Shown here: positions 22,470 to 38,337 of the stretch, one piece after another
How positions within the stretch are numbered: the stretch's first letter is position 1
How the letters are laid out: each line of letters begins with the position of its first letter
Source of the DNA: Pseudoalteromonas sp. DL-6
GTDB lineage: Bacteria; Pseudomonadota; Gammaproteobacteria; Enterobacterales; Alteromonadaceae
Length of the DNA stretch: 64,000 nucleotides
NCBI RefSeq assembly: GCF_004328665.1
Contig: NZ_CP019770.1
Span: forward strand, 2,232,001-2,296,000
Direction of reading: 5' to 3'
Translations under genes and position numbers: made by a program
The notes under the pieces: generated by a model
Told to the model about the DNA's origin: nothing
The model's database searches: none
What the model saw: only the letters and a program-made list of their open reading frames with translations

Positions 22470-22997
22470 CTAAAAAACCAGCTTCGGCTGGTTTTTTTGT
22501 ACATGATTAAAATCCATTGTTCGCAATTTTGATTTGTAATTGCCATCCTCAAGCTTATTAAGCAAATAATAGTGCCCGTATTGCTCCTCATCCATATTTT
22601 CAATCGCTTGGTTACTTAATAATGAAGCCAGTTGCGGTGTGGTATTACTATGCCCTATAACCACCACAACGCCGTCTTGTGCCAACAACTGATTTTTCAA
22701 TGCCGTTAAATCTGCAGCATTATAGGTAATCGTTTTAATATTAAAATATGCGGCTAAGGGTGCTGCAGTACTTAATGTGCGGTTATAATTACTACTGTAT
22801 AACGTTATGTGTGGATGAATGTTAACCAACGAAACCAAATTCTCAGCACGCGCCTGCCCTTGCTCTGTTAAATATGGATTACTGCCTGTTTGTTTTTCAC
22901 TATGGCGAAACAAATAAAGTTGTTCAGGCGCAGAAAAAGCAGGATGGCAAACGAGTAACAGTAATGCTACCCATGCTGATTTTATCAATGAGCTCAT
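22470..22997 (-). CDS. Periplasmic histidine-phosphatase family protein
   Basis: 175 residues with a signal peptide ending in HPAFSA. The branch 1 histidine phosphatase (phosphoglycerate mutase-like) motif LFRHSEKQ carries the catalytic His32. The second catalytic His is in VVVIGHSNT (about 118). SixA-like in size, but exported, so its substrate is extracytoplasmic. It starts with a TAATG overlap on the stop of the serine hydrolase gene, indicating translational coupling. The final twelve codons form half of the yhbY terminator. Confidence 0.85.
   Translation of the reverse strand: MSSLIKSAWVALLLLVCHPAFSAPEQLYLFRHSEKQTGSNPYLTEQGQARAENLVSLVNIHPHITLYSSNYNRTLSTAAPLAAYFNIKTITYNAADLTALKNQLLAQDGVVVVIGHSNTTPQLASLLSNQAIENMDEEQYGHYYLLNKLEDGNYKSKLRTMDFNHVQKNQPKLVF
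22472..22498 (+). terminator. UUCG-loop terminator of yhbY
   Basis: ACCAGC, TTCG tetraloop and GCTGGT with flanking A and T tracts. The last codons of the convergent phosphatase gene (stop at 22470) lie inside this hairpin. Confidence 0.9.
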
Positions 22998-24148
22998 TAT
23001 TTTTTGCCTCGTTTGTATGCCAATAAACGGTCTATGAATTCCGTGGTAAGCTCATTAATAAGCCCTGTTTCTGCATTTAAAATTAAGCTAAAGCCTACGT
23101 TTAAATGCGGAAAAACCACTAAATCACTTCGGTATCCTTGTACCCAACCACTGTGATAGTAAAGCGTTTCATCATTATAATCATACACACGCCAACCCAG
23201 CCCATAATAGGCTTCATTCATGTGTTCTCGCCACACCCGTCGATAACGTTCTTTTTTAGTGTGCGTGTACGGACGCGTTTGGGTAGCTAATGCGTCTAAT
23301 GATAATACCGCTGGATATTGTCCTAATTGCGCATTTAACCAAATAGCCATATCTGATGCACTGGCGTTAACCCCTGCCGCGGGTGCAACTTTGTAATAAT
23401 TCTTTTTTAAACGGGCGCTATACCAACGCTTTTTACCACGCACGTGAGGGTGTGCATAGTTATTATCTTGCACCATGGCATCGTAACCTAAACTAGCATC
23501 ATTCATTTCTAAAGGGGTAAAAAACGCGTCATTGAGCCACTGGGTATAGGTTTTGTTGGTGCTTTTTAAAATCACATCGTCAATTAAGCTAAACATCACA
23601 TTTTGATAACCATAACAATCACCGGGGTCACAAATGGGTTTGACACTCAATAGTTTTTCAACAATGTCGTTATAGCCCATTCGCGATTCGATTAAGTTAT
23701 CGTAAGCATTGGGCACTAACCCACTAGAATGGCTTAAAATATGAAAAACTTTTAAATCATCTTTATAACCAGTTTGCTTAAAGTCAGGTAAATAGTGACT
23801 AACAGGTAAATAAAGGTTGAGCCGCTGTTCATTTGCAAGTTTAGCCGCTAACGACCCTGCAAATGTTTTCGATACTGAAGCTAAACGAAACCGAGTGTGC
23901 GGATTAATTTTTTGTCCACTGCGTACCTTTGTATGGCCCATAGTATGGATATAGTCACGCGCTTGGGAGTTGACAATAGAAAGCGCTCCTCCTGGGATTT
24001 TTTTTATTTTTAGTTTTTTTTCTGTATAGCGTCCATAACTTTTAACAAATGCTTCCCAATCAGGATCTGTGCTTGCGCTCGCCTGCAAATGCGTCCCCAT
24101 AAGGCACACAGCAAAAAAGTAAAAGGGTAAGGTGTTAAAATACTTCAT
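22997..24148 (-). CDS. Exported serine hydrolase, class C beta-lactamase fold
   Basis: 383 residues with a signal peptide ending near LQASAS. The family motifs are SVSK (Ser91-Lys94) for the nucleophile and its general base, a YQN triad (GYQNVMFSL, about 185), and HSGWVQG (about 340) in place of the KTG box. These fit the beta-lactamase-related esterase/DD-peptidase group rather than a true beta-lactamase. It is in an operon with the histidine phosphatase. The substrate is unknown. Confidence 0.88.
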   Translation of the reverse strand: MKYFNTLPFYFFAVCLMGTHLQASASTDPDWEAFVKSYGRYTEKKLKIKKIPGGALSIVNSQARDYIHTMGHTKVRSGQKINPHTRFRLASVSKTFAGSLAAKLANEQRLNLYLPVSHYLPDFKQTGYKDDLKVFHILSHSSGLVPNAYDNLIESRMGYNDIVEKLLSVKPICDPGDCYGYQNVMFSLIDDVILKSTNKTYTQWLNDAFFTPLEMNDASLGYDAMVQDNNYAHPHVRGKKRWYSARLKKNYYKVAPAAGVNASASDMAIWLNAQLGQYPAVLSLDALATQTRPYTHTKKERYRRVWREHMNEAYYGLGWRVYDYNDETLYYHSGWVQGYRSDLVVFPHLNVGFSLILNAETGLINELTTEFIDRLLAYKRGKK

Positions 24149-25089: not shown

Positions 25090-25103
25090 TACATTTTTTT
25101 ACA
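25090..25103. promoter_or_regulatory. RstA-box-like site upstream of cassette 1
   Basis: TACATTTTTTTACA matches the E. coli RstA box TACATNTNGTTACA at every defined position except the G. It is 64 bp upstream of the first MipA/OmpV gene, whose cassette encodes an RstA-like regulator. A TATACT lies downstream at about 25125. The functional link is inference. Confidence 0.35.
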
Positions 25104-25166
25104 GATTTAGCCAAGAGTTTGACAATATACTAGCCTCTTTAGCAAACTCTAATTAAGGTTCCAAGG

Positions 25167-26024
25167 ATGACGCATACTTCACTTAAACAATCTTTTGGTT
25201 GTGCAGCCTTATTAGTTGCCGCCATTTTTAGTGCCAAAAGCAACGCTAGTAATCGTTACTATGCCGATAATACCTTAGAGCCCACAACTGGGTTTGCTTG
25301 GGATTGGAGTGCTGGTGCGGGTTATTACATTGAAGACTCTTATTTAGTTGGCATGAACTCCTATGATGTTGGCGCAGAGCTAGATTTGAGTCTTGCCGTT
25401 TCTTACGATAATTTTTATCTTGATTTTGACCATAATCAGCTCAGCGGTGGACTTGTTTTAGGCTATAGCTTAATTAACAAATATGATTGGGGCCTTGATT
25501 TATTAGGTACCAATATTCAAGCGGGGTTTGATGAGCAAGGTTTAGGCTTTTACAACGACGGGGTAATTGATCCACTGCGTGGTATAAAAAAGCGTAACTA
25601 TGATTTTGACACCGGCCTTCGATTAACACGCCGATTTGAAAATTCACAAATTTCCCTTGAATACTTACATGATATATCTGGTGCTCATAACGGCTGGGTT
25701 GCCAATGTGTTTTTCAGCCATATTCAACCTTGGCGCAATTGGGAGTTTCGCTCCGGAATTGGCCTAAGCGCCTACTCTGCTGATTTTACAAACTATTACT
25801 TTGGTATTGATAGCGATGAAGCAAACGCAACCCGTCCTATTTATAATACCGACGCCAGTACCAGTATTATGTTTGAATTTCATGCTGAATATCCAATTAA
25901 TCAAGATTGGGTATTTTTAGCAGGCTGGTTAACTACATGGTTTTCAAAAGAAATTGATGACAGCCCAATTATTTCCCAAGGATATCAACACAAAGCCAAG
26001 GTAGGCCTGCGTTATGTACTTTAG
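25167..26024 (+). CDS. MipA/OmpV family outer-membrane protein (cassette 1)
   Basis: 285-residue outer-membrane barrel of the MipA/OmpV family. In E. coli MipA scaffolds the murein hydrolase MltA with PBP1B; other members respond to osmotic or antibiotic stress. A signal peptide ends near SNAS. Aromatic-rich alternating strands follow, with FAWDWSAGAGYYIEDSYLVG, a conserved GLDL region, and a C-terminal YQHKAKVGLRYVL. The 3' end overlaps the DUF3019 gene by 11 bp. It is the first gene of a four-gene cassette paralogous to that at 35039-38238. Confidence 0.88.
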   Translation: MTHTSLKQSFGCAALLVAAIFSAKSNASNRYYADNTLEPTTGFAWDWSAGAGYYIEDSYLVGMNSYDVGAELDLSLAVSYDNFYLDFDHNQLSGGLVLGYSLINKYDWGLDLLGTNIQAGFDEQGLGFYNDGVIDPLRGIKKRNYDFDTGLRLTRRFENSQISLEYLHDISGAHNGWVANVFFSHIQPWRNWEFRSGIGLSAYSADFTNYYFGIDSDEANATRPIYNTDASTSIMFEFHAEYPINQDWVFLAGWLTTWFSKEIDDSPIISQGYQHKAKVGLRYVL

Positions 26025-26400
26025 ATTTTTTTACTGTTTGTTGTTTACATACTCAGGCTCTTTGCTTGCAGTGACAACACAAGCGCCCAGTGAGCTTACT
26101 GCCGTACCGGATACCTGTGTCGCCTTACGTGAAGGACGCCATTGTTACGCCGATGTGGTTTTGTCATGGCAGCAACCGGAAGTGGGGAATTATTGCTTAC
26201 GCGACGCGACTTCAAAGTACATTATGCAGTGCTGGCTTAAACAGCGACAAGGTTCGTTTAATTATGCTTTTGACTCAACACAAAGCATTTCATTTGAGCT
26301 ATTTGATAGTAATACATCACAGGTCATTGCTGTAAGCGAAGTAAAACTACAATGGGTGTATCAAAATAGGCAAAAAAAGCGGCGCTGGCGATTATTTTAA
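26014..26400 (+). CDS. DUF3019 secreted protein (cassette 1)
   Basis: 128 residues with a signal peptide ending near SLLAVTTQ. The mature domain carries four cysteines spaced C-x8-C-x16-C-x11-C (DTC, RHC, NYC, MQC) within a short beta-sandwich-like sequence. It ends in a very basic tail RQKKRRWRLF. The family has no assigned function. The ATG lies inside the last codons of the MipA gene after AAGGTAGG, so translation is coupled. The second copy at 37008 has the same cysteine plan. Confidence 0.85.
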   Translation: MYFRFFYCLLFTYSGSLLAVTTQAPSELTAVPDTCVALREGRHCYADVVLSWQQPEVGNYCLRDATSKYIMQCWLKQRQGSFNYAFDSTQSISFELFDSNTSQVIAVSEVKLQWVYQNRQKKRRWRLF

Positions 26401-26463
26401 ATCAGCCAACTATTAAACATATTTTACTAGCTAAAATATCATTTAGGTATACGAAGAAAGCTT

Positions 26464-27168
26464 ATGGATAATTACGGTACTATTTTACTGGTTGAAGATG
26501 ATATCTCTCTTGCACAATGGGTGACTGAGTATTTAACTGAGCAAGGTTATATTGTGCATGTGTGTCATCGCGGTGATGAGGTTGTAAGCCAAGTAAAGCA
26601 TTTAAATCCACAACTTATTTTACTCGACATTATGTTACCCGGACTTGATGGTATTAGTGTATGTCGTGAGTTACGAAGCTTTTATCATGCCCCTATAATT
26701 ATGCTCACCGCACGAGATGAAGAAATGGATGAGGTCATTGGGCTTGAAGTCGGTGCTACCGATTACATAATAAAACCTGTTCGCCCTCGTGCATTGCTTG
26801 CCCGTATTAAGTCGGCTTTACGTTACAGCAACGACATGCCTAACACTGATGCTCAAACGAGTATAATCAATATCGGTCAATTAAGTATTAATACCGAATC
26901 TCGTAACGTCACACTCAACCAACAAGATATAAATATTTCAAGCGCAGAGTACTTATTACTGCATTATTTAGCGAGCAACGCTGGGCAAGTAGTATCGCGT
27001 GATGCGGTATTTAAAGCAACCAAAGGCAGGGAGTATGATGGCTTAGATAGAAGCGTTGATGTACTTATTTCTGCTTTACGTAAAAAGTTTAATGATGATC
27101 CGCAAAAACCAGAAAAAATAAAAACTATTTGGGGCCGTGGTTACTTATTCGTGACTACAGCGTGGTAA
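26464..27168 (+). CDS. OmpR-family response regulator (cassette 1)
   Basis: 234 residues. The receiver domain (about 6-118) has the acidic pair Glu11-Asp12, phosphoacceptor Asp55 in LILLDIMLPG, and the lysine in IIKPVRP. The winged-helix DNA-binding domain (about 135-232) includes GREYDGLDRSVDVLISALRKK, a signature shared with RstA. It pairs with the histidine kinase 77 bp downstream, and probably regulates its own cassette. Confidence 0.93.
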   Translation: MDNYGTILLVEDDISLAQWVTEYLTEQGYIVHVCHRGDEVVSQVKHLNPQLILLDIMLPGLDGISVCRELRSFYHAPIIMLTARDEEMDEVIGLEVGATDYIIKPVRPRALLARIKSALRYSNDMPNTDAQTSIINIGQLSINTESRNVTLNQQDINISSAEYLLLHYLASNAGQVVSRDAVFKATKGREYDGLDRSVDVLISALRKKFNDDPQKPEKIKTIWGRGYLFVTTAW

Positions 27169-27245
27169 CTTTTAATACCAGAGTGCTTATAAATAAACGT
27201 CACTTTAATGTACCAAGCCTGCGCTATTAATATGGAATAGCATCA

Positions 27246-28535
27246 ATGAAAAAGTTTTATATTTCACTACTGGGCAGTGCGCTGCTTTCAATTATTGTTT
27301 TAGGTTGGCTCATTGATGCATTTAGTCAACAAGCGCATGCGCCACTCGATGAGTTTAGTTTACAAAGCCAAATTATTGTTGGTTTAAGTGAACAACTCAC
27401 GGCTATAAAACCACAAGCACGCCCTGAGAAGGTAACTCAGTTAGCCAGAGATTTTAATCTAGCTCTTAACTACAAATTAAACCAGTCGCTCGCACTGCCA
27501 TCAGAGTTATTAGATAAAATGCAAACCCAAGGCGGGTTAATACTCGAGGACGAGCAAGGCTTTTACATGCTCTACACGAATGATGCATTGAGCCCTTATC
27601 ATTTAACCATGCGTTTAGATAAGCCTTACGAAAGCACACAGCGAAACGACATAATTTTAACACTGCTATTTTATACTGGCTTATGTGTTTTTATGGGCTT
27701 TATTATTACCCCTTTAGCAAAACGCCTCACGGTATTAAATGATGCGGCAAAACAGTTCGCATCCGGTAATGTTAAAGCCCGAATTAAGCCCTCTCGCTTT
27801 ACCTATATAAAAGATGTGGAACTGACTTTTAACCGTATGGCGAGCCAAATTGAAAAGTTAGTTGCTGAAAATAAACTGATGGCCTCAAGCCTATCCCATG
27901 ACATTAGAACTCCAATAGCCTGCTTACGCTTTGGTGTTGACGCCGCCCTTGATACTCATGACGAGAGTAAAATAAAGCATTATTTAACCCGTATGGAGAC
28001 CGATTTGGATCATATGGAGTCAATGTTAAAAAGCTATTTAGCGTTTGCTACTTTGGAACAAAATGCCAATAAACTTACTTACTCATCAGCAAATATTAAA
28101 CATTACCTCAGTGATATTATGTCGCAACTTGAACCTAAAATAGCCGCACGTTCGCTCAAAATCTCTTTAGAGTGCGATGATCATACTATATATGCTGACT
28201 TACATTGGCTAGCAAGAGCAATCGCTAACTTAATTAATAATGCCTGCGATTTTGCTCATCATCACATTAAAGTAACAGCTTCAGTGCAAGAACACGTTTT
28301 AGTTATTAGCATTGCCGATGATGGCCCAGGAATAGCTCAAGAAAATAACCATAAAGTATTTAGCCCGTTCTTTCGTGAACGTAGCCACCGCAATCGCAGT
28401 GACAATAGTTACGGACTCGGGTTAGCGATCGTTGCCAAAGTCGCAGATTGGCATCATGGTACTGTAGCAGTAAGCAAAAGCGAGCAACTTGGTGGAGCCT
28501 GCTTTACATTAAGTATTGCTCAGCATGAAGGTTAA
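27246..28535 (+). CDS. Sensor histidine kinase (cassette 1)
   Basis: 429-residue membrane kinase. TM1 is at about 5-24 and TM2 at about 134-155, bounding a periplasmic sensor of about 110 residues. HAMP is at about 157-208, and the dimerisation box SSLSHDIRTPIACLRF carries His218. The ATPase domain shows the N box NLINNACDFA, the G1 box IADDGPGI and the G2 box YGLGLAIVAKV. It has the RstB-like layout. The signal it senses is unknown; the linked MipA and DUF3019 proteins suggest an envelope cue. Confidence 0.93.
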   Translation: MKKFYISLLGSALLSIIVLGWLIDAFSQQAHAPLDEFSLQSQIIVGLSEQLTAIKPQARPEKVTQLARDFNLALNYKLNQSLALPSELLDKMQTQGGLILEDEQGFYMLYTNDALSPYHLTMRLDKPYESTQRNDIILTLLFYTGLCVFMGFIITPLAKRLTVLNDAAKQFASGNVKARIKPSRFTYIKDVELTFNRMASQIEKLVAENKLMASSLSHDIRTPIACLRFGVDAALDTHDESKIKHYLTRMETDLDHMESMLKSYLAFATLEQNANKLTYSSANIKHYLSDIMSQLEPKIAARSLKISLECDDHTIYADLHWLARAIANLINNACDFAHHHIKVTASVQEHVLVISIADDGPGIAQENNHKVFSPFFRERSHRNRSDNSYGLGLAIVAKVADWHHGTVAVSKSEQLGGACFTLSIAQHEG

Positions 28536-28732
28536 TCAACCAAGCACTATCGCTTCTAACTAACGCAATATAATTAAAGAAATCGTGCTATTTATAATCA
28601 AAATACGCACGTGTTATTTATATCTGAAAATAAAACGCAATAATTGTGCGACTTAGTCAAATAAGCACTTTTTATTTATTTACAATTCCAGTAGATTGTC
28701 AGCGGCGTCAAAAAATAGAGAAGCAGAATAAT

Positions 28733-30088
28733 ATGAGTGCAGTCAGAGGTGAGTTTAGCTCCCGCTTTGGTTTTATAATGGCCGCAGCAGGGTCTGCTGT
28801 TGGGCTTGGTAATATTTGGGGTTTCCCAACACAAACAGCAAGTAATGGGGGGGCAGCCTTTTTAGTCGCGTACTTAGTACTGGCCTTCTTTTTAGCCTAT
28901 CCCGCTTTAATGGCAGAACTGATGATAGGTCGCCATGGACAAGCTAATGCGGTTTCTTCATTAACTAAATTAACCACTAAACCTTGGCAAAAGCAGTTTG
29001 CTTTTGCTGTTGGCTTTGGCGGTATTTTATGTGCAGGTTTTATACTCAGCTTTTATGCGATTGTTGCTGGTTGGATGTTAAGTGCAACTCTGGAGCCGGT
29101 TACCACACTCATAGGTGCTGATGCTGCATCTTCGTGGCTAAGTAAACAGTCACTTACACGTAATATTCTTTTTACTGTGGTATTTATTATTTTAACCGTT
29201 GCTATTATTAGCCGCGGTGTTGAAAACGGTATTGAAAAGTGGTCAAAACGTTTAATGCCTGCTCTGCTCGGAATTTTGTTTGCTTTAATTGCCTATGTAA
29301 TGACTCAAGAAGGGGCTGTTGAGGGGTTAAAAGCTTACTTAGTCCCCGATTTTTCTTCTATTTTTGATCCTACGTTATTAGTCAGTGCATTAGGGCAAGC
29401 CTTCTTTTCATTATCACTGGGTACCAGTGTAATGATTATTTATGGCTCATATATCAGTAAAAAGGAAAACCTCGTCTCTTTGGGTGCTTATGTTACGCTT
29501 ATTGATGTATTTATAGCATTTGTAGCGGGCTTACTGATTATCCCGGCTATGTATGTTGCACAAGCACAAGGTGTTGAAATATTCTCGTCAACAACAGGCA
29601 AGCTGCTCTCAGAAGACACTTTAGTATTTCAGGTTTTACCCGCCCTATTTGATGGTATGGGTGGTGTTGGTTTATTTGTTGGCTTTGCTTTTTTTGCATT
29701 AATGAGTATTGCCGCACTGACCTCGTCTATTTCAATGCTTGAAGCGCCGGTGTCGTACACTGTAGAGCGTTTTGCAATGAAGCGTGTGCAAGCCACGTGG
29801 TTAATTGGTGCTTTGATTGCCATTGTCAGTATTACTATTGTATGTAACCTAGGCGCGTTATTTGGTTTAGTGATCACCTTAACGACTAAAGTCGCGCAGC
29901 CCTTATTAGGACTTATGTGTTGTATTTTTGTAGGGTGGATCTGGTACAGGTCGTCATTGCTCAAAGCAATCCAGCAAGGTAACCCTGAAGTACATAACAC
30001 CTTATTTTGGAAAATATGGCCTTGGTACACTAAGTTTGTATGCCCCATAGCCATTAGCCTAGTATTCTTACATTCTTTACTAAGCTAA
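28733..30088 (+). CDS. Sodium-dependent NSS-family transporter
   Basis: Sodium:neurotransmitter symporter homologue of the LeuT fold, importing amino acids or similar solutes. From the ATG at 28733 it is 451 residues and begins GEFSSRFGFIMAAAGSAVGLGNIWGFP, the sodium- and substrate-binding TM1 signature. About 11-12 membrane segments are visible, as in bacterial members that lack TM12. An upstream extension to 28646 is less likely because it adds a polar non-family N terminus. Its own terminator was split by an IS element. Confidence 0.9.
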   Translation: MSAVRGEFSSRFGFIMAAAGSAVGLGNIWGFPTQTASNGGAAFLVAYLVLAFFLAYPALMAELMIGRHGQANAVSSLTKLTTKPWQKQFAFAVGFGGILCAGFILSFYAIVAGWMLSATLEPVTTLIGADAASSWLSKQSLTRNILFTVVFIILTVAIISRGVENGIEKWSKRLMPALLGILFALIAYVMTQEGAVEGLKAYLVPDFSSIFDPTLLVSALGQAFFSLSLGTSVMIIYGSYISKKENLVSLGAYVTLIDVFIAFVAGLLIIPAMYVAQAQGVEIFSSTTGKLLSEDTLVFQVLPALFDGMGGVGLFVGFAFFALMSIAALTSSISMLEAPVSYTVERFAMKRVQATWLIGALIAIVSITIVCNLGALFGLVITLTTKVAQPLLGLMCCIFVGWIWYRSSLLKAIQQGNPEVHNTLFWKIWPWYTKFVCPIAISLVFLHSLLS

Positions 30089-30108
30089 AAATAAAATATA
30101 AAAAAAGG

Positions 30109-30120
30109 CCCACAAATGTG
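30109..30120. repeat. Left target-site duplication of the IS
   Basis: CCCACAAATGTG, identical to 31274-31285. Twelve base pairs is within the 11-13 bp range of the IS4 group. Confidence 0.95.
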
Positions 30121-30177
30121 TAATGCCGATCAGTTAAGAATATTTTTGATCGGTTGACTGATCTTTTTAACGCTTTC

Positions 30178-30210
30178 AAAATCCGATATCTGTCTCTGGT
30201 ATCGGATTTT
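30178..30210 (+). terminator. Hairpin inside the IS, before the transposase
   Basis: AATCCGATA pairs with TATCGGATT, followed by T5. It lies between the left IS end and the transposase ATG at 30214 and would limit expression driven from outside promoters. Confidence 0.6.
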
Positions 30211-30213
30211 TTT

Positions 30214-31264
30214 ATGCGCTTTGAAAATGAATTAGCGGTCGCTTTTAACTCTTGTGGTAGTTTTCATACATTCGAAAAATATGCTGAGCTACTTTCCCCT
30301 CAACTTATTCAGCAAGGCTTTGAACAAGCTGATGTGGCTACCATTCGTAAAAGAAGATTGCCGCTTGAAACGGTTCTGTGGTCAATTATCGGCATGTCTT
30401 TATATCGTCAGAAATCGGTTTGGGATATTGCAACACAAATGGACATTATGTTGCCCGATAAGAAACCATTGGTAGCGCCCAGTGCGTTGGTTCAGGCAAG
30501 ACAGAGGTTGGGGGAAGACGCTGTTCGAGAGGTGTTTCGCGTGATAGCAAAGCATAGCTATGAGTCTAATCAATTTGAAACCTGGGCTGGATTAAATTTG
30601 CTGGCTGTTGATGGTGTTGTCTGGCGAACGGCTGATACGCAGGAAAATCATGAAGTGTTTGAGACACAGAGTAATCAACATAGAGAGAATACTTATCCTC
30701 AGATCCGTATGGTTTGCCACATGGAAATCACCAGCCATCAACTTATCAATAGCGCCTTCTCGGGTTACCGCACCAATGAAATGAAGTTGGCCGAGGAGTT
30801 GGTAAGCACGACTCCAAATCATTCTTTAACGCTGTTTGATAAGGGGTATTACTCTCTTGGTCTGCTAAATCGTTGGCATCAAGCAGGTGAGCAAAGACAC
30901 TGGATGATACCCGCGAAAAAAGACCTTCAGTATGAGGTGCTACGTAGCTTTAGCAAACAGGACCAGCATATACGTTTAACCAGCACACCACAGGCAAGGA
31001 ATGACGGCAGCAGCAGGGAAATTAGGAGGTGTGTTACCCAATCAACTCAGTTTTACCAGCTGTTCAATGGCTATTACACACTTCTTCGTTACTGTATCGT
31101 TGAGCAGTCCAGGCAATATTCCTAAAGCATACAATGCCTTACTCACGAAAATGAGCTTCTTCTTGTTACCAGAAAGGCGAGAAGACAGGAGCTACCCAAG
31201 ATGGGTAAAACCAAAGCCAAAGAAGTATCCGACTAAAAAGAAAAATGCCAGTCAGCTTAACTGA
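30214..31264 (+). pseudogene. IS4-family transposase, deleted and frameshifted
   Basis: The N-terminal two thirds (30214 to about 31005) match IS4 transposase: [33 protein letters not shown], first catalytic Asp in [11 protein letters not shown], and second Asp in [17 protein letters not shown]. After STPQARND the sequence jumps to GVLPNQLSF in another frame (31001-31264), which carries the normal C terminus ending PERREDRSYPRWVK and KPKKYPTKKK. About 95-100 residues between them, including the YREIK block with the catalytic Glu, are missing. The 30214 frame itself stops at 31125. The product cannot be active. Confidence 0.9.
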
Positions 31265-31271
31265 CTGGCAT
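31245..31271 (-). terminator. Hairpin at the right IS end
   Basis: ATGCCAGTCAG and CTGACTGGCAT form an 11-bp stem around CTTAA. On the minus strand the stem is followed by TTTTCTTTTT, so it can terminate transcripts entering the IS from the acetyltransferase gene. Confidence 0.6.
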
Positions 31272-31273
31272 TA

Positions 31274-31285
31274 CCCACAAATGTG
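31274..31285. repeat. Right target-site duplication of the IS
   Basis: CCCACAAATGTG, the exact copy of 30109-30120, immediately outside the right terminal repeat. Confidence 0.95.
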
Positions 31286-31307
31286 GGCCTTTTTTATTGA
31301 GAATTAC

Positions 31308-31751
31308 CTACAGCTTTAAAATCATGTCCTGATGGGCAATCCCATCCTCTAAGTATTCATTACCAACGCACTCAAAGCCAAATGAGCGATAAAAATTTAG
31401 TAGGTAGGTTTGCGCGCCTATATAAATATCACGAGAAGGCCATTGGGCCTTACAGCAGTTAATAGCGTGGCTAACTAATTCTTTGCCTAAACCAGAGCTG
31501 CGCTGTGATTGAGTAACTAAAACGCGCCCTATCGCACTGTACTGTGCATCTTTTTCATAACAACGAGCATAAGCATTTACGGTTTGCCCATCGAGTGAAT
31601 ACAGGTGGCGAGTAGCATCTGCAATATCAACATCATCAAGTTCGGGATAAGGACACGCTTGCTCTACAACAAATACGTCAACACGTTTACGCATAATGGC
31701 AAACAAAGTCTGGGAGTCGAGCGCTGAGAATGGCTCAGGTTTAAATGCCAT
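31308..31751 (-). CDS. ElaA-type GNAT acetyltransferase
   Basis: 147 residues in the ElaA branch of GNAT proteins. Visible are LFAIMRKRVDVFVVEQACPYPELDDVD (about 16-42), the acetyl-CoA loop VTQSQRSSGLGKELV (about 79-93) and the late FYRSFGFECVGNEYLEDGIAHQDM, all characteristic of ElaA. Start follows AGAGGTG. The substrate is unknown. It is convergent to the IS and NSS transporter and 47 bp downstream of the Spo0M-like gene. Confidence 0.88.
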   Translation of the reverse strand: MAFKPEPFSALDSQTLFAIMRKRVDVFVVEQACPYPELDDVDIADATRHLYSLDGQTVNAYARCYEKDAQYSAIGRVLVTQSQRSSGLGKELVSHAINCCKAQWPSRDIYIGAQTYLLNFYRSFGFECVGNEYLEDGIAHQDMILKL

Positions 31752-31798
31752 TAAAACACCTCTTATTATTACAGAGGCTTAATCAGCCTCTGTATTCA

Positions 31799-32542
31799 TC
31801 AAGCAAACAGTCGCTCTAACTGATCGCATAGCTGAGATAAGTTAACATGATCATGCTCAATGGTTAAATCGACATAACCGTCACTTCTAAATGCTCTGTC
31901 TAACTCAATCAGCACATGCGTTTTATGTGCTTCAGGAATAAACGAGAGTTCGATTTCTTTTATTCCAAATAAGCTACGGCTATTTGGTTGATATTCAAGC
32001 TCTTGGTAACACCCCGACACAGATTGAAAAGTAGACGCACGAAGATGCCCCTGTTCTACATCTGCTTTGACTAAACTAAAGCCAAGCTTCTCCATTGCTT
32101 GCATACAGGTTTTAACCGCTTCATTAGGATAGATGTGTAAATGGTCTTTATCTGTTGGGTCAAGTGCAAGATCAATATCAAGCCCTGTTTCTAACCACAC
32201 ATAAGACTGGTTATAACCGGCATTAATTTCAGTGATTGGTGTTTCTGAGTGCAAACGGGCCTCAAATGGAATGGTTTTCACTTCACCAGGCTCAACGGTA
32301 CCAATATCAGTAATGCGCCACTGATCAATAACATGATTAGTAAAATAATCACCGTCTTCACTGGCTACTTTTACTCGGGTAACTAACATTAAATCTAAAC
32401 CCGCAATTTCTTGACTTACATCGCCTGCGGTAATGACAATTTGTGCATTAAATAATTGCCCAGGCTGAAGATGCTCAGTTTCTAGGATAGTATCTACTTT
32501 GGCGGCACCAATGCCTACCGATGCTAAAATTTTTTTAAACAT
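31799..32542 (-). CDS. Spo0M-like protein
   Basis: 247 residues of the sporulation-control Spo0M family, arrestin-like beta-sandwich proteins also found in non-sporulating proteobacteria. The opening MFKKILASVGIGAAKVDTIL is diagnostic. FNAQIVITAGDVSQEIAGLDL (about 31-51) and FIPEAHKTHVLIELDRA in the second half follow. No signal peptide, so cytoplasmic. The AAGGAG site is ideal. Function outside Bacillus is not established. Confidence 0.9.
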   Translation of the reverse strand: MFKKILASVGIGAAKVDTILETEHLQPGQLFNAQIVITAGDVSQEIAGLDLMLVTRVKVASEDGDYFTNHVIDQWRITDIGTVEPGEVKTIPFEARLHSETPITEINAGYNQSYVWLETGLDIDLALDPTDKDHLHIYPNEAVKTCMQAMEKLGFSLVKADVEQGHLRASTFQSVSGCYQELEYQPNSRSLFGIKEIELSFIPEAHKTHVLIELDRAFRSDGYVDLTIEHDHVNLSQLCDQLERLFA

Positions 32543-32851
32543 ATTTTCTCCTTAAGCTAAGCAATACTTTTGTTCGCTTTCGCTTAAACTCCTTCGTTAT
32601 GGCATCTTAACCACATTTAAAAGCGCTTGTCAGCGAAAAACTGCTATTTACATGCTGTTTACCATAAAACTAACCACATATGTGTGTTTTTTGTACTTTA
32701 CAGCCACTTTATACCTGTATTAAGGTGTTTTAGTAATCAGCTGATAAATACTCACTATCAGCCAATTAGCAGCTGTAAATAAGTAGATTAATTGTCAATA
32801 AGCATTGTTTTTCGCTACACTACAATGCCAAATGCAGTGATACTAATAACT

Positions 32852-34423
32852 ATGGAACTAATTTATTTTGCTACCGCCTTCGTCTGCGGTTTTGGTATAT
32901 ATCAGCTAAAATTACCGCCACTTATCGGCTTTCTTATGGCCGGGTTTATTCTTAATTTAGCGGGCTACAAAAGCACGGAGCTACTCGAAACGATTGCCTC
33001 TTTAGGAGTCACACTGCTACTTTTTAGTATTGGCCTCAAGCTAAAAATTTCTAACCTTATGAAACCTCAAGTATGGGCTCCTGCCACCATACACATTGTT
33101 TTAAGTAGCGCATTATTTAGTGGTTTTATGTTGTTGCTTGGTGTATTTGCACTACCGCTATTTGTTGATTTAAGCTGGCAAAGTGCGTTGTTAGTTGGCT
33201 TTGCTCTGAGCTTTTCGAGCACGGTATTTGCTGTAAAAGTGCTGGAAGAGCGTGGGGAAATGGCAAGTTTGCATGGTAAAATAGCCATTGGTATTTTGGT
33301 TATGCAAGATATATTTGCTGTCATCTTCTTAGCGGTCAGTACGGGTAAAGTACCAAACATTTGGGCCTTAGGATTAATTGTTGCGCTACCTTTGTTTCGC
33401 CCTATTATGTATTGGGTTTTAAATCGTTCTAAACACGGTGAGCTACTGCCGCTATTTGGTTTCTTCTTTGCGTTAGTGGCGGGATATAATGCCTTTGAAT
33501 TCGCAGGATTAAAGGGCGATTTAGGCGCATTGATCATTGGCATGATATTCGCCCCACACAAAAAAGCCGGTGAGCTGTCTAAGTCATTACTTAGCTTAAA
33601 AGATATATTACTGGTTGGTTTTTTCTTAAGTATTGGTTTAAGTGCTGAGCTTACTGCCCACTCTCTAGTCGTTGCCTTAATTTTAGTATTAGTTATTCCT
33701 GTTAAAACGCTGCTTTATTACATATTAACCAACTTATTTAAACTGCGTGCTCGTACTTCTTTACTCACTGCGTTTAGTTTGGCTAACTTTAGTGAGTTTG
33801 GCTTGATTGTTTGCGCAGTTGCAGCATCTAGCGGCATGGTTACCTCTGAATGGCTCGCCGTTATCGCAATTGCCGTATCCATCACATTTGTGATTGCTTC
33901 CCCTTTAAATAAACGTTCTAACGAGCTGTACGTTAAAATTGAACGGTTTTTATTGAAGTTTGAAAGTAAAACCCGCTTAGCGGAAGAGCTTCCTGTTAAC
34001 TTAAATGATACGAAAATAGTAATCTTTGGTATGGGTAGAATTGGCACCGGTGCCTACGAAACAATAAACTCAACCCATCCTGATGTTGTAGCAGGTATTG
34101 ATATTAAACCTGAGGTGGTTGATAAACATATAAAACGTGGGCGCAGAGTATTAATTGCTGATGCAACTGACCCCGATTTTTGGCAGCGCGTTAATCACTC
34201 CCATGTTGAAATGGTCATGTTAACTATGCCCAAGCATATGCAAAATATTTTTGCCTTAGAGCAGTTGCAGGCATCAGGTTATAAAGGGCAAGTTACAGCC
34301 ATTGCTAACTATCCCGATCAGCAAAAAGAATTAGAGGATATGGGAATAGATTCTACTTATAACTTTTACTTAGAGGCTGGTAGCGGTTTTGCGGAACATG
34401 TAAAGCAAACCTTGTTTCCGTAA
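32852..34423 (+). CDS. KefB/CPA2-type cation:proton antiporter
   Basis: Inner-membrane monovalent cation:proton (K+ efflux-like) antiporter. From MELIYFATAFVCGFGIYQLKLPPLIGFLMAGFILN (32852) it is 523 residues. It has 12-13 membrane segments with the FSSTVFAVKVLEERGE ion-site segment and GALIIGMIFAPHKKAGELS. A cytosolic RCK/TrkA-N domain (about 385-520) shows the nucleotide-binding GMGRIGTGAY. The 32792 upstream start adds a non-family extension. No ancillary KefF/KefG gene is adjacent. Confidence 0.87.
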   Translation: MELIYFATAFVCGFGIYQLKLPPLIGFLMAGFILNLAGYKSTELLETIASLGVTLLLFSIGLKLKISNLMKPQVWAPATIHIVLSSALFSGFMLLLGVFALPLFVDLSWQSALLVGFALSFSSTVFAVKVLEERGEMASLHGKIAIGILVMQDIFAVIFLAVSTGKVPNIWALGLIVALPLFRPIMYWVLNRSKHGELLPLFGFFFALVAGYNAFEFAGLKGDLGALIIGMIFAPHKKAGELSKSLLSLKDILLVGFFLSIGLSAELTAHSLVVALILVLVIPVKTLLYYILTNLFKLRARTSLLTAFSLANFSEFGLIVCAVAASSGMVTSEWLAVIAIAVSITFVIASPLNKRSNELYVKIERFLLKFESKTRLAEELPVNLNDTKIVIFGMGRIGTGAYETINSTHPDVVAGIDIKPEVVDKHIKRGRRVLIADATDPDFWQRVNHSHVEMVMLTMPKHMQNIFALEQLQASGYKGQVTAIANYPDQQKELEDMGIDSTYNFYLEAGSGFAEHVKQTLFP

Positions 34424-34621
34424 TCGGGCTTAGATGCAAATAGATTGCATTTACATTCCTTTACATCTGAGTATTTTATTGGTCAAAAAATAAGGTAAAA
34501 TGTCTGTGTTGGTTGAATAAAGCTAATACCTAAGTTTGTGTTTTATAAAAGACAAATAACGGACCCCTTGCTTTTAAATGACCAATAAGATTCTCAAATT
34601 AGAGGGCCTACTCCCTCTATC

Positions 34622-34653
34622 AATAGGCTGTTACTTGCCCGTTACAGCCTATT
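34622..34653 (+). terminator. Hairpin after the antiporter gene
   Basis: AATAGGCTGT pairs perfectly with ACAGCCTATT, followed by TTATT. It is about 200 bp past the antiporter stop and 50 bp before the DUF3820 gene. Confidence 0.6.
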
Positions 34654-34700
34654 TTATTCCCTTAAAATCCCTTACACTTATCGTAATTATTTTATAAAAG

Positions 34701-34931
34701 ATGTCAGTAATGGATCCTCAACAACTAAAAATCGCGATTAACACCATTATGCCATTTGGCAAATATGCAGGACGCCCTTTACTTTTACTGCCTGAGCCTT
34801 ACTTAGTGTGGTTTAAACAGCAAGGCTTTCCTGATAGCAAGCTTGGCTCTCAGCTCGCTATGATGTACGAAGTGAAGCTTAATGGTTTAGAGCAAATGCT
34901 GATGCCACTACTAGAAAAAAATAGTAAATAA
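34701..34931 (+). CDS. DUF3820 family small protein
   Basis: 76-residue cytoplasmic protein. The MPFGKYAGRPLLLLPEPYLVWFKQQGFP segment is the hallmark of the DUF3820 (putative quorum-sensing-regulated virulence factor-like) family. Function is not known. An alternative ATG lies 9 nt downstream (MDPQQ). A bidirectional terminator follows before the convergent histidine kinase. Confidence 0.85.
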   Translation: MSVMDPQQLKIAINTIMPFGKYAGRPLLLLPEPYLVWFKQQGFPDSKLGSQLAMMYEVKLNGLEQMLMPLLEKNSK

Positions 34932-34999
34932 AATAGAACTTTTTTATAAGTCGTCTGTCTATCTATTTGCTACTTGTTGATTTTTTGGTTTTAAACCGC

Positions 35000-35026
35000 A
35001 AAAAAGCGCCTTTATGGCGCTTTTTT
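35000..35026. terminator. Bidirectional terminator
   Basis: AAAAAAGCGCC, TTTAT loop and GGCGCTTTTTT. It serves the DUF3820 gene and, on the minus strand, the end of the second cassette. Confidence 0.92.
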
Positions 35027-35038
35027 ATTGTTTGGTAT

Positions 35039-36274
35039 TTAGTTGTCGAGGGTGATAATAAACTTAACCCCACCCAGTGGTGAGTCTTCAATCTTGCACT
35101 GCCCTTTATGCCAACTAATAATTTTATTTACAATTGCTAGCCCTAATCCAAACCCACCGGTTTTTTTATCACGGCTTTTATCTAAGCGGGTAAAGGGTTT
35201 AAACACTTTCTCACGTTCAGCACCGGCAATACCTGGGCCATCATCTTCAATCACCAGAAATAGCTTCGCAGCGTTGGCAGTTAAACTAATATGCACATTT
35301 TGCGTAGCATGTTTCAGTGCGTTACTAATTAAATTTTGTAGCACTCGCGACATAAAATGGCTATCACATACGTAAATAAATTGACTCGGTAGCGTTGTTG
35401 TTAATTTAATAGGGGTATCAAAACTTACTTTTTCGATATTGGCTTTAATTAATGCGACGATATCACAAGGAGCCAATTGCAAGCTTGGTTGCTGTGTATC
35501 TAAACGAGCGTATTCCAGCATTTCTGATACCAAGGATTCTAGCTCATGAATATCCATTTGCATATCAGATAAATAGTGCTGTGCTTTGCCATCTTGAACT
35601 TTATTCTCTAGCATCGCGATTGCAAACTTCAAACGCGCTAATGGTGTTCTGAACTCATGTGACACTGAGGAAGTCAGTTCCTGTTGAGCACTCAGTAAAA
35701 ATTCAATCCGTTGCTGCATTACTTGCAGTGTATCAGTGATGGGTAAAAAGAATGATTTAGAGCTGTCGCTTAATTGAAAATCTTGCGCCCCACCGACGGC
35801 TTCACAGGCTTGGCTGAGCTTGGCAAAATCTCGCCATAACAGTAAGCTCCATAACCCTATCGGTAAGCTAATAATAAATAAAACTAATAAATAAGGAATT
35901 ACGGTCCCAGTGTTTTTAGCTTTAACACCTAAAGGGCCGACTTGTAATAACTGAGAGTTATTTAAAGTAACATACCAAACAATACGTTGCTGCTTATCAT
36001 ACAAGTAAAGGTAATTATTTTGCGTTAATTGTGTTTGCTGCTCAGCTGGGAGAACTAAATCTTGCGGGGCGATAACTTGGCTATCAAAATTATGTTTTAA
36101 CTGCTCAAGACCATCTGGCGTTTGAGAAAGCAGCCATAACGACTGCCCAAATTCATCATCTAACAAAACAAGTTGCTCGGATTCATCATACGGCCAAAGC
36201 TGCTCTATAACACCACTGGCAATAAACAAAGAAGCAATAATATATACGTAAAGGCTTATAAATAGCTTTCCCAT
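35039..36274 (-). CDS. Sensor histidine kinase (cassette 2)
   Basis: 411-residue membrane kinase, last gene of the second cassette. TM1 is at about 5-25, TM2 at about 124-147, with a periplasmic sensor of about 100 residues between. The H box SSVSHEFRTPLARLKF carries His206. The N box NLISNALKHA, G1 IEDDGPGI and G2 GFGLGLAIVNKI are intact. It has the same architecture as the cassette 1 kinase but a clearly different sensor domain, suggesting a different signal. It is 26 bp downstream of its regulator. Confidence 0.93.
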   Translation of the reverse strand: MGKLFISLYVYIIASLFIASGVIEQLWPYDESEQLVLLDDEFGQSLWLLSQTPDGLEQLKHNFDSQVIAPQDLVLPAEQQTQLTQNNYLYLYDKQQRIVWYVTLNNSQLLQVGPLGVKAKNTGTVIPYLLVLFIISLPIGLWSLLLWRDFAKLSQACEAVGGAQDFQLSDSSKSFFLPITDTLQVMQQRIEFLLSAQQELTSSVSHEFRTPLARLKFAIAMLENKVQDGKAQHYLSDMQMDIHELESLVSEMLEYARLDTQQPSLQLAPCDIVALIKANIEKVSFDTPIKLTTTLPSQFIYVCDSHFMSRVLQNLISNALKHATQNVHISLTANAAKLFLVIEDDGPGIAGAEREKVFKPFTRLDKSRDKKTGGFGLGLAIVNKIISWHKGQCKIEDSPLGGVKFIITLDN

Positions 36275-36300
36275 TAACCTAGCCTAATACCTTGCATTAA

Positions 36301-36993
36301 TTACATGTCCCACGCATCTGATACAAATAAATAGCCTTGCCCCCACACCGTTTTAATGCGGTATGGTTTATCACTATTATCACCAAGCTTCTTGCGAATA
36401 CGAGATACGCGTACATCAACGGTTCGATCTAGCCCGTCGTACTCACGGCCAATCATATGTTGGTGCACATGCTCTCGGCTGAGAACCTCTCCGGCATTTG
36501 AAGCCAACAACCACAGTAATTCAAACTCATGCGAAGTTAATACAATTTCAACACCGCTTAGCTTTACAATTCGACTAGTTTTATCTATTGATAAGTCACC
36601 AAATTTAAGCTCTTCAACGGCTTTTACGCTAGGCTGCCCACGGCGCAGTAATGCACTAATTCGAGCCAATAACACGCGCGGCTCAGCAGGTTTAATAACG
36701 TAATCGTCAGCACCGAGTTCTAAGCCAATAACTTGGTCAAAATCTTCACCCTTTGCGGTAAGCATTAAAATAGGTAAGGTGTATTTGTCGCGCACTTGAC
36801 GACACACGCTAAAGCCATCTTTTCCTGGCAACATCACATCTAAAATGATTAGATCAGCATGATTTTCACTCAAATAAGGAAACACTTCGTCACCGCGATC
36901 TAATACGTCAACTTCTAAGCCATTATGCTCAAGATAGTCTTTGGTTAATTGTTGCAACCCTAAGTCATCTTCAACAAGTAATATCTTTGGCAT
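36301..36993 (-). CDS. OmpR-family response regulator (cassette 2)
   Basis: 230 residues. Receiver with Glu8-Asp9-Asp10, phosphoacceptor Asp52 in LIILDVMLPG and Lys in YVIKPAEP. The winged-helix domain has GREYDGLDRTVDVRVSRIRKKLG and IKTVWGQGYLF, the RstA-type signature also present in cassette 1. The ATG follows TAGGAG. It is 14 bp downstream of the DUF3019 gene. Confidence 0.94.
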   Translation of the reverse strand: MPKILLVEDDLGLQQLTKDYLEHNGLEVDVLDRGDEVFPYLSENHADLIILDVMLPGKDGFSVCRQVRDKYTLPILMLTAKGEDFDQVIGLELGADDYVIKPAEPRVLLARISALLRRGQPSVKAVEELKFGDLSIDKTSRIVKLSGVEIVLTSHEFELLWLLASNAGEVLSREHVHQHMIGREYDGLDRTVDVRVSRIRKKLGDNSDKPYRIKTVWGQGYLFVSDAWDM

Positions 36994-37007
36994 TTACTGC
37001 TCCTAAA

Positions 37008-37385
37008 TTAAAAAAAGCTCCAAGGTGAGCGTAGCCGATGTTTTTTCTTAGCGTATACAGTCTGCACTTCTACTTGCACACTCGCTAATGATACACCTGT
37101 AAGGGGATTAATCAGGGAGTATATGGTCTCCACCTGAACACGCGCTTTATAACTAAGTTGCCCTTTTTTTACCCCTTGCCAACATTGCAACTGAGTATCT
37201 TGCTGGTATAAACACACATCGCTTGGCTCAGACAGTTGCCAGTTAAATTTTAACTCAAGATCACAAAATTCTTGTTGTTCGGAAACCACACAGACTTTGG
37301 GTGATACGTTAAGTGAAGAGGCTTTTGCAACGCTAATGTTGCTAAAAAATGAAGCTGCAAACACAACCAACATAAAACACTTCAT
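37008..37385 (-). CDS. DUF3019 secreted protein (cassette 2)
   Basis: 125 residues with a signal peptide ending near SVAKAS. The four cysteines follow C-x8-C-x16-C-x9-C (KVC, EFC, DVC, LQC), nearly the same as the cassette 1 protein. Likewise it ends in a basic-aromatic tail KKKHRLRSPWSFF. Outside these features identity between the two is low, so the duplication is old or the copies were acquired separately. It begins one base after the MipA stop. Confidence 0.85.
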   Translation of the reverse strand: MKCFMLVVFAASFFSNISVAKASSLNVSPKVCVVSEQQEFCDLELKFNWQLSEPSDVCLYQQDTQLQCWQGVKKGQLSYKARVQVETIYSLINPLTGVSLASVQVEVQTVYAKKKHRLRSPWSFF

Positions 37386-37386
37386 A

Positions 37387-38238
37387 TTAAAATGTATGTT
37401 CGAATCCTATAAAGGCGGTCATTGAATAGTCATGTTCAAAGAGCGGGCTGCTATCCATTGCTGAATAGTCATAATATGCTAAATGAAAACGAAGCGCGTT
37501 GGTTTTACCTAGGGGCCAACGGGCGTCGATTTTAGCATAAGGTTGCCAGCTACTACCAACTTCTATTTCACCATATGAAGATTCTGTGCTGTTTAAGCCA
37601 TAAAAGTAGTTATTTAGTTGGGCTGATTTATAGTTAACGCCTAAGGTCGATTTAAGTTTTAACAACTTAAGATCAAAATGGTATTGCCATTGTAGCGATC
37701 CTCTGTAGCTATTATAAACACTGTTTACGTCATGCAATAATTGCGCAGAAAAAACATGTTGTTGTTTTACAAAAAAATAACTCACACCCGCATCCAACAC
37801 CACTCGTCTTTTTTGAATGTTATTAATATTAATCTGGCGAGGAGATTCAATGTGTTGTGATTCTAATATTTCATTATTAGACATTGCTGTGAGCGGGAAT
37901 ATATTTTGCGGGTGCCAATCAATAAAAAACCGTGATTCTGGGTTAATTTCTGACACTAAGCTAATGTTATGCGTATCGCTTTGTAAAAAAGAATAACCTA
38001 AGCGACCGTTATCAAAAAACCAATTTTGGCCATAATAAGCTACTTGTGGAACCACCAACAAAGGAATGTTGTCAGCACCGTATAAAGGATTACTGATCAC
38101 TCCAGCCCCTAAGCTGACACTAATCTTAAGTTCATCCGTAGAGATATGTTGCTGCGTCTGAGCAATTGCATTAGCGCTAAATAACGCCAATAAAATGCAT
38201 ATTTTTATTCTCAGATGTAACATCATGGAGTTATTCAC
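37387..38238 (-). CDS. MipA/OmpV family outer-membrane protein (cassette 2)
   Basis: 283-residue barrel protein, first gene of the second cassette. The signal peptide is MMLHLRIKICILLALFSANA plus IA, so the start may be the ATG at 38226 or 38223 instead of the GTG at 38238. The mature part shows LKISVSLGAGVISNPLYGADNIP, VPQVAYYGQNWFFDNGRLGYSF (the MipA motif order), and a terminal FIGFEHTF ending in Phe. Partners and ligands are unknown. Confidence 0.87.
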   Translation of the reverse strand: MNNSMMLHLRIKICILLALFSANAIAQTQQHISTDELKISVSLGAGVISNPLYGADNIPLLVVPQVAYYGQNWFFDNGRLGYSFLQSDTHNISLVSEINPESRFFIDWHPQNIFPLTAMSNNEILESQHIESPRQININNIQKRRVVLDAGVSYFFVKQQHVFSAQLLHDVNSVYNSYRGSLQWQYHFDLKLLKLKSTLGVNYKSAQLNNYFYGLNSTESSYGEIEVGSSWQPYAKIDARWPLGKTNALRFHLAYYDYSAMDSSPLFEHDYSMTAFIGFEHTF

Positions 38239-38337
38239 TAGTTTATAAAGTGGCTTTGACCCTATAGTAGCAAGTAGTATCAGTACAAGCTCTAGAGGGT
38301 TACAATCATTAACAAATTTGATACAAACGGAACACGT

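Follow-up and report, generated by a model that had tools for sequence, protein, structure and literature searches.

Paralogous MipA–DUF3019–two-component cassettes of Pseudoalteromonas sp. DL-6 as candidate autoregulated envelope sensors

Outer-membrane barrels of the MipA/OmpV family have been linked to two-component systems (TCS) in Pseudomonas and Vibrio. The excerpted text of PMC10936184 proposes that MipA and MipB, a lipoprotein with a beta-lactamase fold, serve ParS as co-sensors of polymyxin, reports that ParR acts on the mipBA promoter, notes TCS genes beside many mipA genes, and describes the way in which ParS senses cationic peptides as unknown. According to excerpts of PMC9178039, CarR of Vibrio cholerae acts directly on ompV. 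The published RstA box, TACATNTNGTTACA, has tandem TACA sites (excerpts of PMC4117788). Here, we analyzed a stretch of 64,000 nucleotides from Pseudoalteromonas sp. DL-6 (NZ_CP019770.1, positions 2,232,001 to 2,296,000; hereafter the window), in which two gene sets, or cassettes, each encode a MipA/OmpV barrel, a DUF3019 protein (PF11456), a response regulator (RR), and a histidine kinase (HK). With some reservation, we favor reading these cassettes as autoregulated sensors of cationic peptides and envelope state, of the ParRS-MipBA kind, with DUF3019 as a periplasmic coupling protein. A cassette would probably induce its own genes in response to cationic, membrane-damaging peptides at the envelope. 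No described function of DUF3019 was found in the open-licence full-text literature, in line with the sequence-only reading of the window, which knew of no mechanism for this family.

The cassettes occupied positions 25167–28535 (plus strand) and 35039–38238 (minus strand), converging on each other with about 6.5 kb between them. Cassette 1 comprised mipA (25167..26024, 285 aa; PF06629, 120.4 bits), the DUF3019 gene (26014..26400, 128 aa, with a signal-like N-terminus as judged by eye; PF11456, 98.6 bits), and genes for an OmpR-type, RstA-like RR (26464..27168) and a sensor HK with RstB as its closest NCBIfam model (27246..28535). Cassette 2 had a GTG-initiated mipA (37387..38238, 283 aa; 103.3 bits), DUF3019 (37008..37385, 125 aa; 93 bits), an OmpR-type, RstA-like RR (36301..36993), and an HK again closest to RstB (35039..36274). 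All MipA and DUF3019 scores exceeded the Pfam gathering cut-offs (24.2 bits for PF06629 and 25 bits for PF11456). The Response_reg and Trans_reg_C domains of both regulators and the HisKA and HATPase_c domains of both kinases also passed their Pfam cut-offs, and the Pfam scan of the eight proteins gave no family besides these. All eight open reading frames (ORFs) were where the sequence-only reading had placed them, in the same order in both sets. Its description of the spacing as gene fusion-like was apt for tightness (an 11-nt overlap of mipA and DUF3019 followed by gaps of 63 and 77 nt in cassette 1; gaps of 1, 14, and 26 nt in cassette 2), and no fusion was present in either cassette. Identity between the two cassettes was 22% for MipA, 24% for DUF3019, 53% for the RR, and 28% for the HK. 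As that reading had also noted, both regulators carried a GREYDGLDR block and the kinase sensor domains differed, with approximately 27% identity over the sensor part.

A third cassette was present elsewhere in the genome, on contig 1 at approximately 502–505 kb (L004:5955-9116). The genome (3.9 Mb, two contigs) contained only three MipA matches, each inside one cassette. By eye, at least 43 of 108 genomes of the genus have a plus-strand and a minus-strand DUF3019 gene no more than about 15 kb apart on the same contig; the convergent cassette pair is a feature of the genus. The closest database protein to the cassette-2 DUF3019, 96% identical, came from a Pseudoalteromonas. Cassettes 1 and 2 are separated by, among others, an IS4-family transposase gene (30154–31125) with a partial DDE match to PF13006; its DDE part looks shortened.

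PF11456 was found in all 108 genomes of the genus (one to five copies each, mostly two to four). At the level of the order, 65 of 295 genomes had it, and at that of the phylum 18 of 398, including two from outside the order. For the neighborhood analysis, 122 loci were assembled (the window, L004, 101 order-wide stretches besides the window's own, two class-level matches, and 17 hand-picked genus stretches), from which our own profiles recovered 125 DUF3019 genes; L165, where the profile did not recover DUF3019 and the contig ends early, was left out. The order MipA-DUF3019-RR-HK was uninterrupted for 103 of the 125, the remainder being mostly variants of the same order, and this recurrence refutes assembly by chance. 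MipA adjoined DUF3019 in 121 cases (missing in L112, L115, L163, and L100) and an OmpR-type regulator accompanied it in 123, so that DUF3019 lacked an adjacent MipA in only four cases and a regulator in only two. Seven loci appeared to hold MipA and DUF3019 only; five of these had RR-HK after one inserted gene, and L117 and L182 had no TCS within the stretch. L100 had an RR and no same-strand kinase. In a reverse sample of 30 MipA loci of the order (best locus per genome, ± 1.5 kb), five were DUF3019 cassettes, all with a TCS, four had an RR or HK without DUF3019 (one resting on a marginal RR match), and 21 had neither, which indicates that DUF3019 marks a signaling subset of MipA genes.

Several loci departed from this arrangement. 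In L083 (6761–8041), a single open frame of 426 aa ran through DUF3019 and the RR, without a stop codon to separate the periplasmic from the cytoplasmic protein; this locus was counted among the 125 and not among the complete cassettes considered below. In L152 (6084–6818), L156, and L157, a protein of 230–244 aa with a signal-like N-terminus stood between DUF3019 and the regulator and had no Pfam match (one scanned). An extra RR-HK pair lay directly 5′ of the cassette in L189, L190, and L191, giving RR-HK-MipA-DUF3019-RR-HK. Mobile spread of the cassette was considered and rejected: a pattern search of viral contigs gave no relative, and the two plasmid matches were both on Pseudoalteromonas replicons larger than 1.2 Mb.

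Age and co-inheritance were assessed on 151 complete cassettes from 93 genomes, 46 of which had more than one cassette. Junctions overlapped or were within 50 nt in 149 cases for MipA-DUF3019, 143 for DUF3019-RR, and 145 for RR-HK, with actual gene overlaps at 75/151 and 83/151 junctions. Across the 46 multi-cassette genomes, pairwise distances correlated at 0.87 for RR-HK, 0.78 for MipA-HK, 0.75 for DUF3019-HK, 0.74 for DUF3019-RR, 0.65 for MipA-RR, and 0.59 for MipA-DUF3019, and these values dropped to means of 0.14–0.36 when partners were swapped between cassettes within a genome. The four genes vary together as a set, and their distance matrices correlate well only with true cassette partners, which speaks against independent assembly of the two sets. 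Together with the DUF3019 neighborhoods, this co-variation supports the modular envelope-sensing pathway suggested by the sequence-only reading, and neither of the two outcomes that this reading had named as refuting it was observed. In a FastTree phylogeny built on RR+HK for 121 of the 151 cassettes, with neighbor labels entered by hand, the three cassettes of the genome fell in three deep clades, each mixing several families; some of its joins are weak, and the branches flagged as long include that of cassette 3. Recent duplication was rejected on this ground, and cassettes 1 and 2 are old paralogues.

A predicted regulator box, TACATTTTTTTACA, lies 5′ of mipA 1 (25090..25103, plus strand), with a likely −10 hexamer, TATACT, 22 nt 3′ of it (25126..25131, plus strand; orthologue conservation, by eye). 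Named cassette-1 orthologues supplied 39 upstream stretches (from 45 named loci, six of which gave no mipA ORF by the rule used); 37 of these contained the forward TACA-N6-HACA form of the box, as did all members of a further set of 20 genus pairs. Upstream of mipA 2, the predicted box TACAATCATTAACA (38301..38314, plus strand) lies on the strand opposite the gene; all 20 of the same genus pairs (L239–L258) had this reversed TACA-N6-HACA arrangement ahead of their cassette-2 mipA, 13 of them as TACAAT[CT]ATTHACA. The predicted box of cassette 3 is TACAAAATGCTACA. The sequence TACAWTTTTTTACA had a single exact match in the genome, at the cassette-1 box, and each of the three box sequences had exactly one exact intergenic match, at its own mipA, which predicts three separate self-regulating circuits. 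An exact second copy of the 16-nt cassette-2 pattern (G000 contig 2:495676-495691, L268) was located inside a CstA-like coding sequence and is probably due to chance. Across the assembled loci, strict TACA-N6-TACA boxes occurred in 55 of 121 mipA upstream regions (mean 1.75 and maximum 6 in 100 shuffles) and a looser form in 70 (shuffle mean 5.1), vs. 34 and 61, respectively, for 905 other genes of the same loci, from which 42 neighbors sharing a mipA promoter region had been excluded. A large cassette-1 regulon was also considered and rejected: of 60 genus genomes searched, 36 contained the exact box, with 47 sites in total. By eye, 26 of these sites lay 1.0–1.3 kb 5′ of a DUF3019 gene among the matches listed, which left 21 elsewhere, vs. 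17 for the reversed control.

The best NCBIfam match was RstA for the regulators of cassettes 1 and 2 and RstB for all three kinases, in each case below the equivalog cut-off (NF007977 and NF007898: RR, 239.7 and 246.3 vs. 330; HK, 207.9 and 244 vs. 478); the cassette-3 regulator scored slightly higher to PhoB. The periplasmic sensor region of kinase 1 (27321..27665, plus strand) is predicted from a structure model to adopt a ParS-like fold: its best Foldseek match was the solved ParS sensor domain, with a probability of 1.00, followed by 0.41 for the next different protein. Across the cassettes, the kinase sensor region was acidic (median −6), six of the 151 kinases lacking the pattern used to locate the segment. 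Four cysteines were invariant in the DUF3019 proteins, and their cationic C-terminal tail was conserved. The last 12 residues end in KKRRWRLF in cassette 1 (26362..26397, plus strand) and in PWSFF in cassette 2 (37011..37046, minus strand); a terminal Phe was present in 88% of 151 tails, with a conserved Trp at −4. A structure model of the cassette-2 protein predicted an Ig-like fold.

Secreted proteins accompany the cassettes in some relatives. Six loci (L083, L108, L114, L150, L179, and L185) have a PF00144 beta-lactamase-like protein within the cassette or adjoining it, and in two of them, L108 and L179, it separates DUF3019 from the RR. The family was assigned to the L108 protein by a Pfam scan and to the other five by BLAST clustering with it. 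Five of the six proteins had a lipobox pattern, and L179 reads SILGC. A forward TACA-N6-TACA box lay 5′ of all six genes, at −98 to −106 in four; counted from the earliest possible start codon, those of the other two are at −26 and −48, and in our own reading a later start would place them near −92. The boxes of five were seen before the set was defined, and the sixth (L150) was added and checked afterwards. None of the other 11 members of this protein cluster appeared in the general box listing. In the window itself, a PF00144 beta-lactamase-like hydrolase gene (22997–24148) lies outside the cassettes, divergent and two genes from cassette 1, and several genus loci have such a gene ahead of cassette 1 as well.

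A subtilase of approximately 1700 aa was the divergent upstream neighbor of 18 DUF3019 genes in 17 loci and lay downstream in two. Its label required three changes on the tree, vs. 18 when shuffled, and spanned four families; one or two strict boxes were present in 12 of 17 subtilase-side regions, all on the strand reading toward the subtilase. Cassette 3 is of this type. The large S8-like subtilase divergent from it (L004:9238-14415) clusters with that of L146, has a predicted box reading toward it, and carries a C-terminal stretch resembling a surface-sorting tail. A gene for a secreted PF09826 beta-propeller was divergent from the cassette in 11 loci of several families (L123, L128, L131, L173, and seven others; one scanned), and this label was weakly clustered on the tree (8 changes vs. 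10.7).

We propose that the cassettes act as envelope sensors, each complete in itself and under positive autoregulation. The stimulus would be met at the outer membrane by the MipA barrel; the likeliest candidates are cationic antimicrobial peptides, lipopeptides, or the damage that these do to lipopolysaccharide (LPS). DUF3019, putatively secreted, Ig-like, and stabilized by disulphide bonds, may couple the state of MipA through its cationic tail to the acidic, ParS-like kinase sensor. The kinase would then phosphorylate the RstA-type regulator, which could bind the TACA-N6-TACA box and raise, rather than repress, transcription of its own mipA-DUF3019 genes; in other lineages, the regulator may also drive a neighboring secreted protein, i.e., a MipB-like PF00144 lipoprotein or the large subtilase. 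The barrel, the sensor fold, the regulator box, and the MipB-like lipoprotein of some relatives all point toward a system of the ParRS-MipBA type. Such a stimulus is ecologically plausible because some Pseudoalteromonas produce alterins, polymyxin-like lipopeptides that bind LPS (excerpts of PMC7764243).

Several observations weigh against this proposal. The same excerpts describe Pseudoalteromonas as sensitive to polymyxin, and in Vibrio mimicus, OmpV was concluded to be possibly independent of CarRS (excerpts of PMC13413815). The best Foldseek E-value of the sensor was 7e-3, for a model of kinase 1 only of the three, a sequence-level PDB search with this sensor gave no match, and the Ig-like fold predicted for DUF3019 indicates no particular function. 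The 121 mipA upstream regions are related sequences and not independent draws; the strict box was missing in 66 of them, including nearly all of one Shewanella-type clade, and the looser one in 51, and with one mismatch allowed the cassette-1 pattern gave 8 matches vs. 15 for the reversed control. Co-variation of the RR helix with the box spacer was rejected as a proof of binding, since relatedness explains it (partial r −0.06); pairs with an identical helix and receivers more than 25% different had closer spacers (1.83 vs. 4.06 of 7 mismatches; n = 70, pairs not independent). No lipid-A-modification gene was found among the few neighbors annotated (nine cluster representatives).

The strongest rival, which we hold to be possible and still rather unlikely, is that MipA and DUF3019 act purely as outputs: the kinase itself would sense the stimulus, as ParS or PhoQ might, and induce a protective barrel together with a periplasmic binder of cationic peptides or LPS. 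The predicted operators at the cassettes' own mipA promoters and the acidic sensor region fit this, as does the report, in excerpts of PMC13413815, that polymyxin B raises ompV in V. mimicus without a significant increase of carRS, with OmpV read as standing apart from CarRS. Against it, MipA distances co-varied most closely with those of the kinase (0.78), compared to 0.65 with the RR and 0.59 with the short and noisier DUF3019, as expected if barrel and kinase communicate. The sequence-only reading had left the barrel and the small cysteine-containing protein as either sensor partners or main output; both are compatible with the data, because each predicted operator lies 5′ of its own mipA. 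DUF3019 is best read as a periplasmic coupler of barrel and kinase, or as a co-induced protector.

It is doubtful that the cassettes respond to another envelope cue, such as misfolded outer-membrane proteins, LPS changes, acid or salt, or secreted-protease activity, with the C-terminal Phe of DUF3019 marking a chaperone-like or protease-linked monitor. RstAB, the named TCS family closest to the cassettes, is not known to respond solely to peptides, one old lineage spanning four families is coupled to the large subtilase, and most DUF3019 tails do end in Phe; the sensor fold and MipA nevertheless indicate a ParS system, and the MipB-like lipoproteins of six relatives carry the same boxes. A long shot is that the DUF3019 tail is a built-in mimic of an antimicrobial peptide, seated at rest in an acidic MipA lumen, from which cationic peptides would displace it so that it docks on the ParS-like sensor and switches the kinase; if true, this would represent trans-envelope signaling by displacement of a tethered pseudo-ligand. 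That the four genes are mere neighbors in an ancestral locus, with no common mechanism, is hardly credible: descent alone can preserve order, but the order is uninterrupted over many families, several old paralogous lineages retain the whole set, genes overlap, and co-variation falls on shuffling within genomes.

On the preferred reading, that of an autoregulated envelope sensor, the uncharacterised DUF3019 family gains a first testable role and a concrete place in a signaling pathway, and a marine bacterium with three cassettes makes the question of how ParS senses cationic peptides testable. A MipA-plus-TCS envelope sensor is itself of an already known kind. In the open-licence literature, we found no description of DUF3019 as a near-obligate third component, of the set of operators, of the parallel cassettes, or of an association with MipB-like lipoproteins and subtilases; among the papers listed on MipA with Shewanella or Pseudoalteromonas, neither the titles nor the opening lines of the abstracts mention it. 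The sequence-only reading had missed the third cassette, the operators, the cationic tail, the secreted partners of relatives, and the likeness to ParRS-MipBA and CarRS-OmpV.

To our knowledge, MipA and DUF3019 are no part of the described RstAB system, and the cassette TCS differ from it in that their scores all remain below the equivalog cut-offs. RstAB of Escherichia coli and Klebsiella resembles the cassettes as the best NCBIfam match of their TCS and in its tandem TACA box (excerpts of PMC4117788). The carRS-ompV-virK locus of V. cholerae likewise combines an RstAB-like TCS and an OmpV/MipA barrel, with direct action of the regulator on the barrel gene and a cationic-peptide stimulus as features of V. 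cholerae (excerpts of PMC9178039 and PMC13413815). Here, the likeness is one of family, MipA/OmpV plus TCS: the closest NCBIfam models were RstA, RstB, and OmpVVibrio, all below cut-off (80 bits vs. 400 for the cassette-1 MipA against OmpVVibrio). Unlike in that locus, DUF3019 takes the place of VirK, for which the Pfam scan of the eight window proteins gave no match, and the gene order is different. ParRS-mipBA of P. aeruginosa shares with the cassettes a MipA barrel near an OmpR-type TCS, a regulator at the barrel promoter (shown there, according to excerpts of PMC10936184, and predicted here), a sensor fold that is the best match of the kinase 1 model, and PF00144-type lipoproteins, which with their boxes adjoin the cassette in six relatives. 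It differs in that the window cassettes contain no MipB-like gene, DUF3019 is a near-obligate extra component, and the genes form one tight MipA-DUF3019-RR-HK operon in three parallel copies in one genome. This suggests that MipA/OmpV barrels and ParS/RstB-type kinases constitute a general theme in envelope sensing, with a periplasmic partner that is swapped from system to system: Pseudomonas has MipB, Vibrio has VirK, and the present cassettes have DUF3019, sometimes together with a MipB-like protein.

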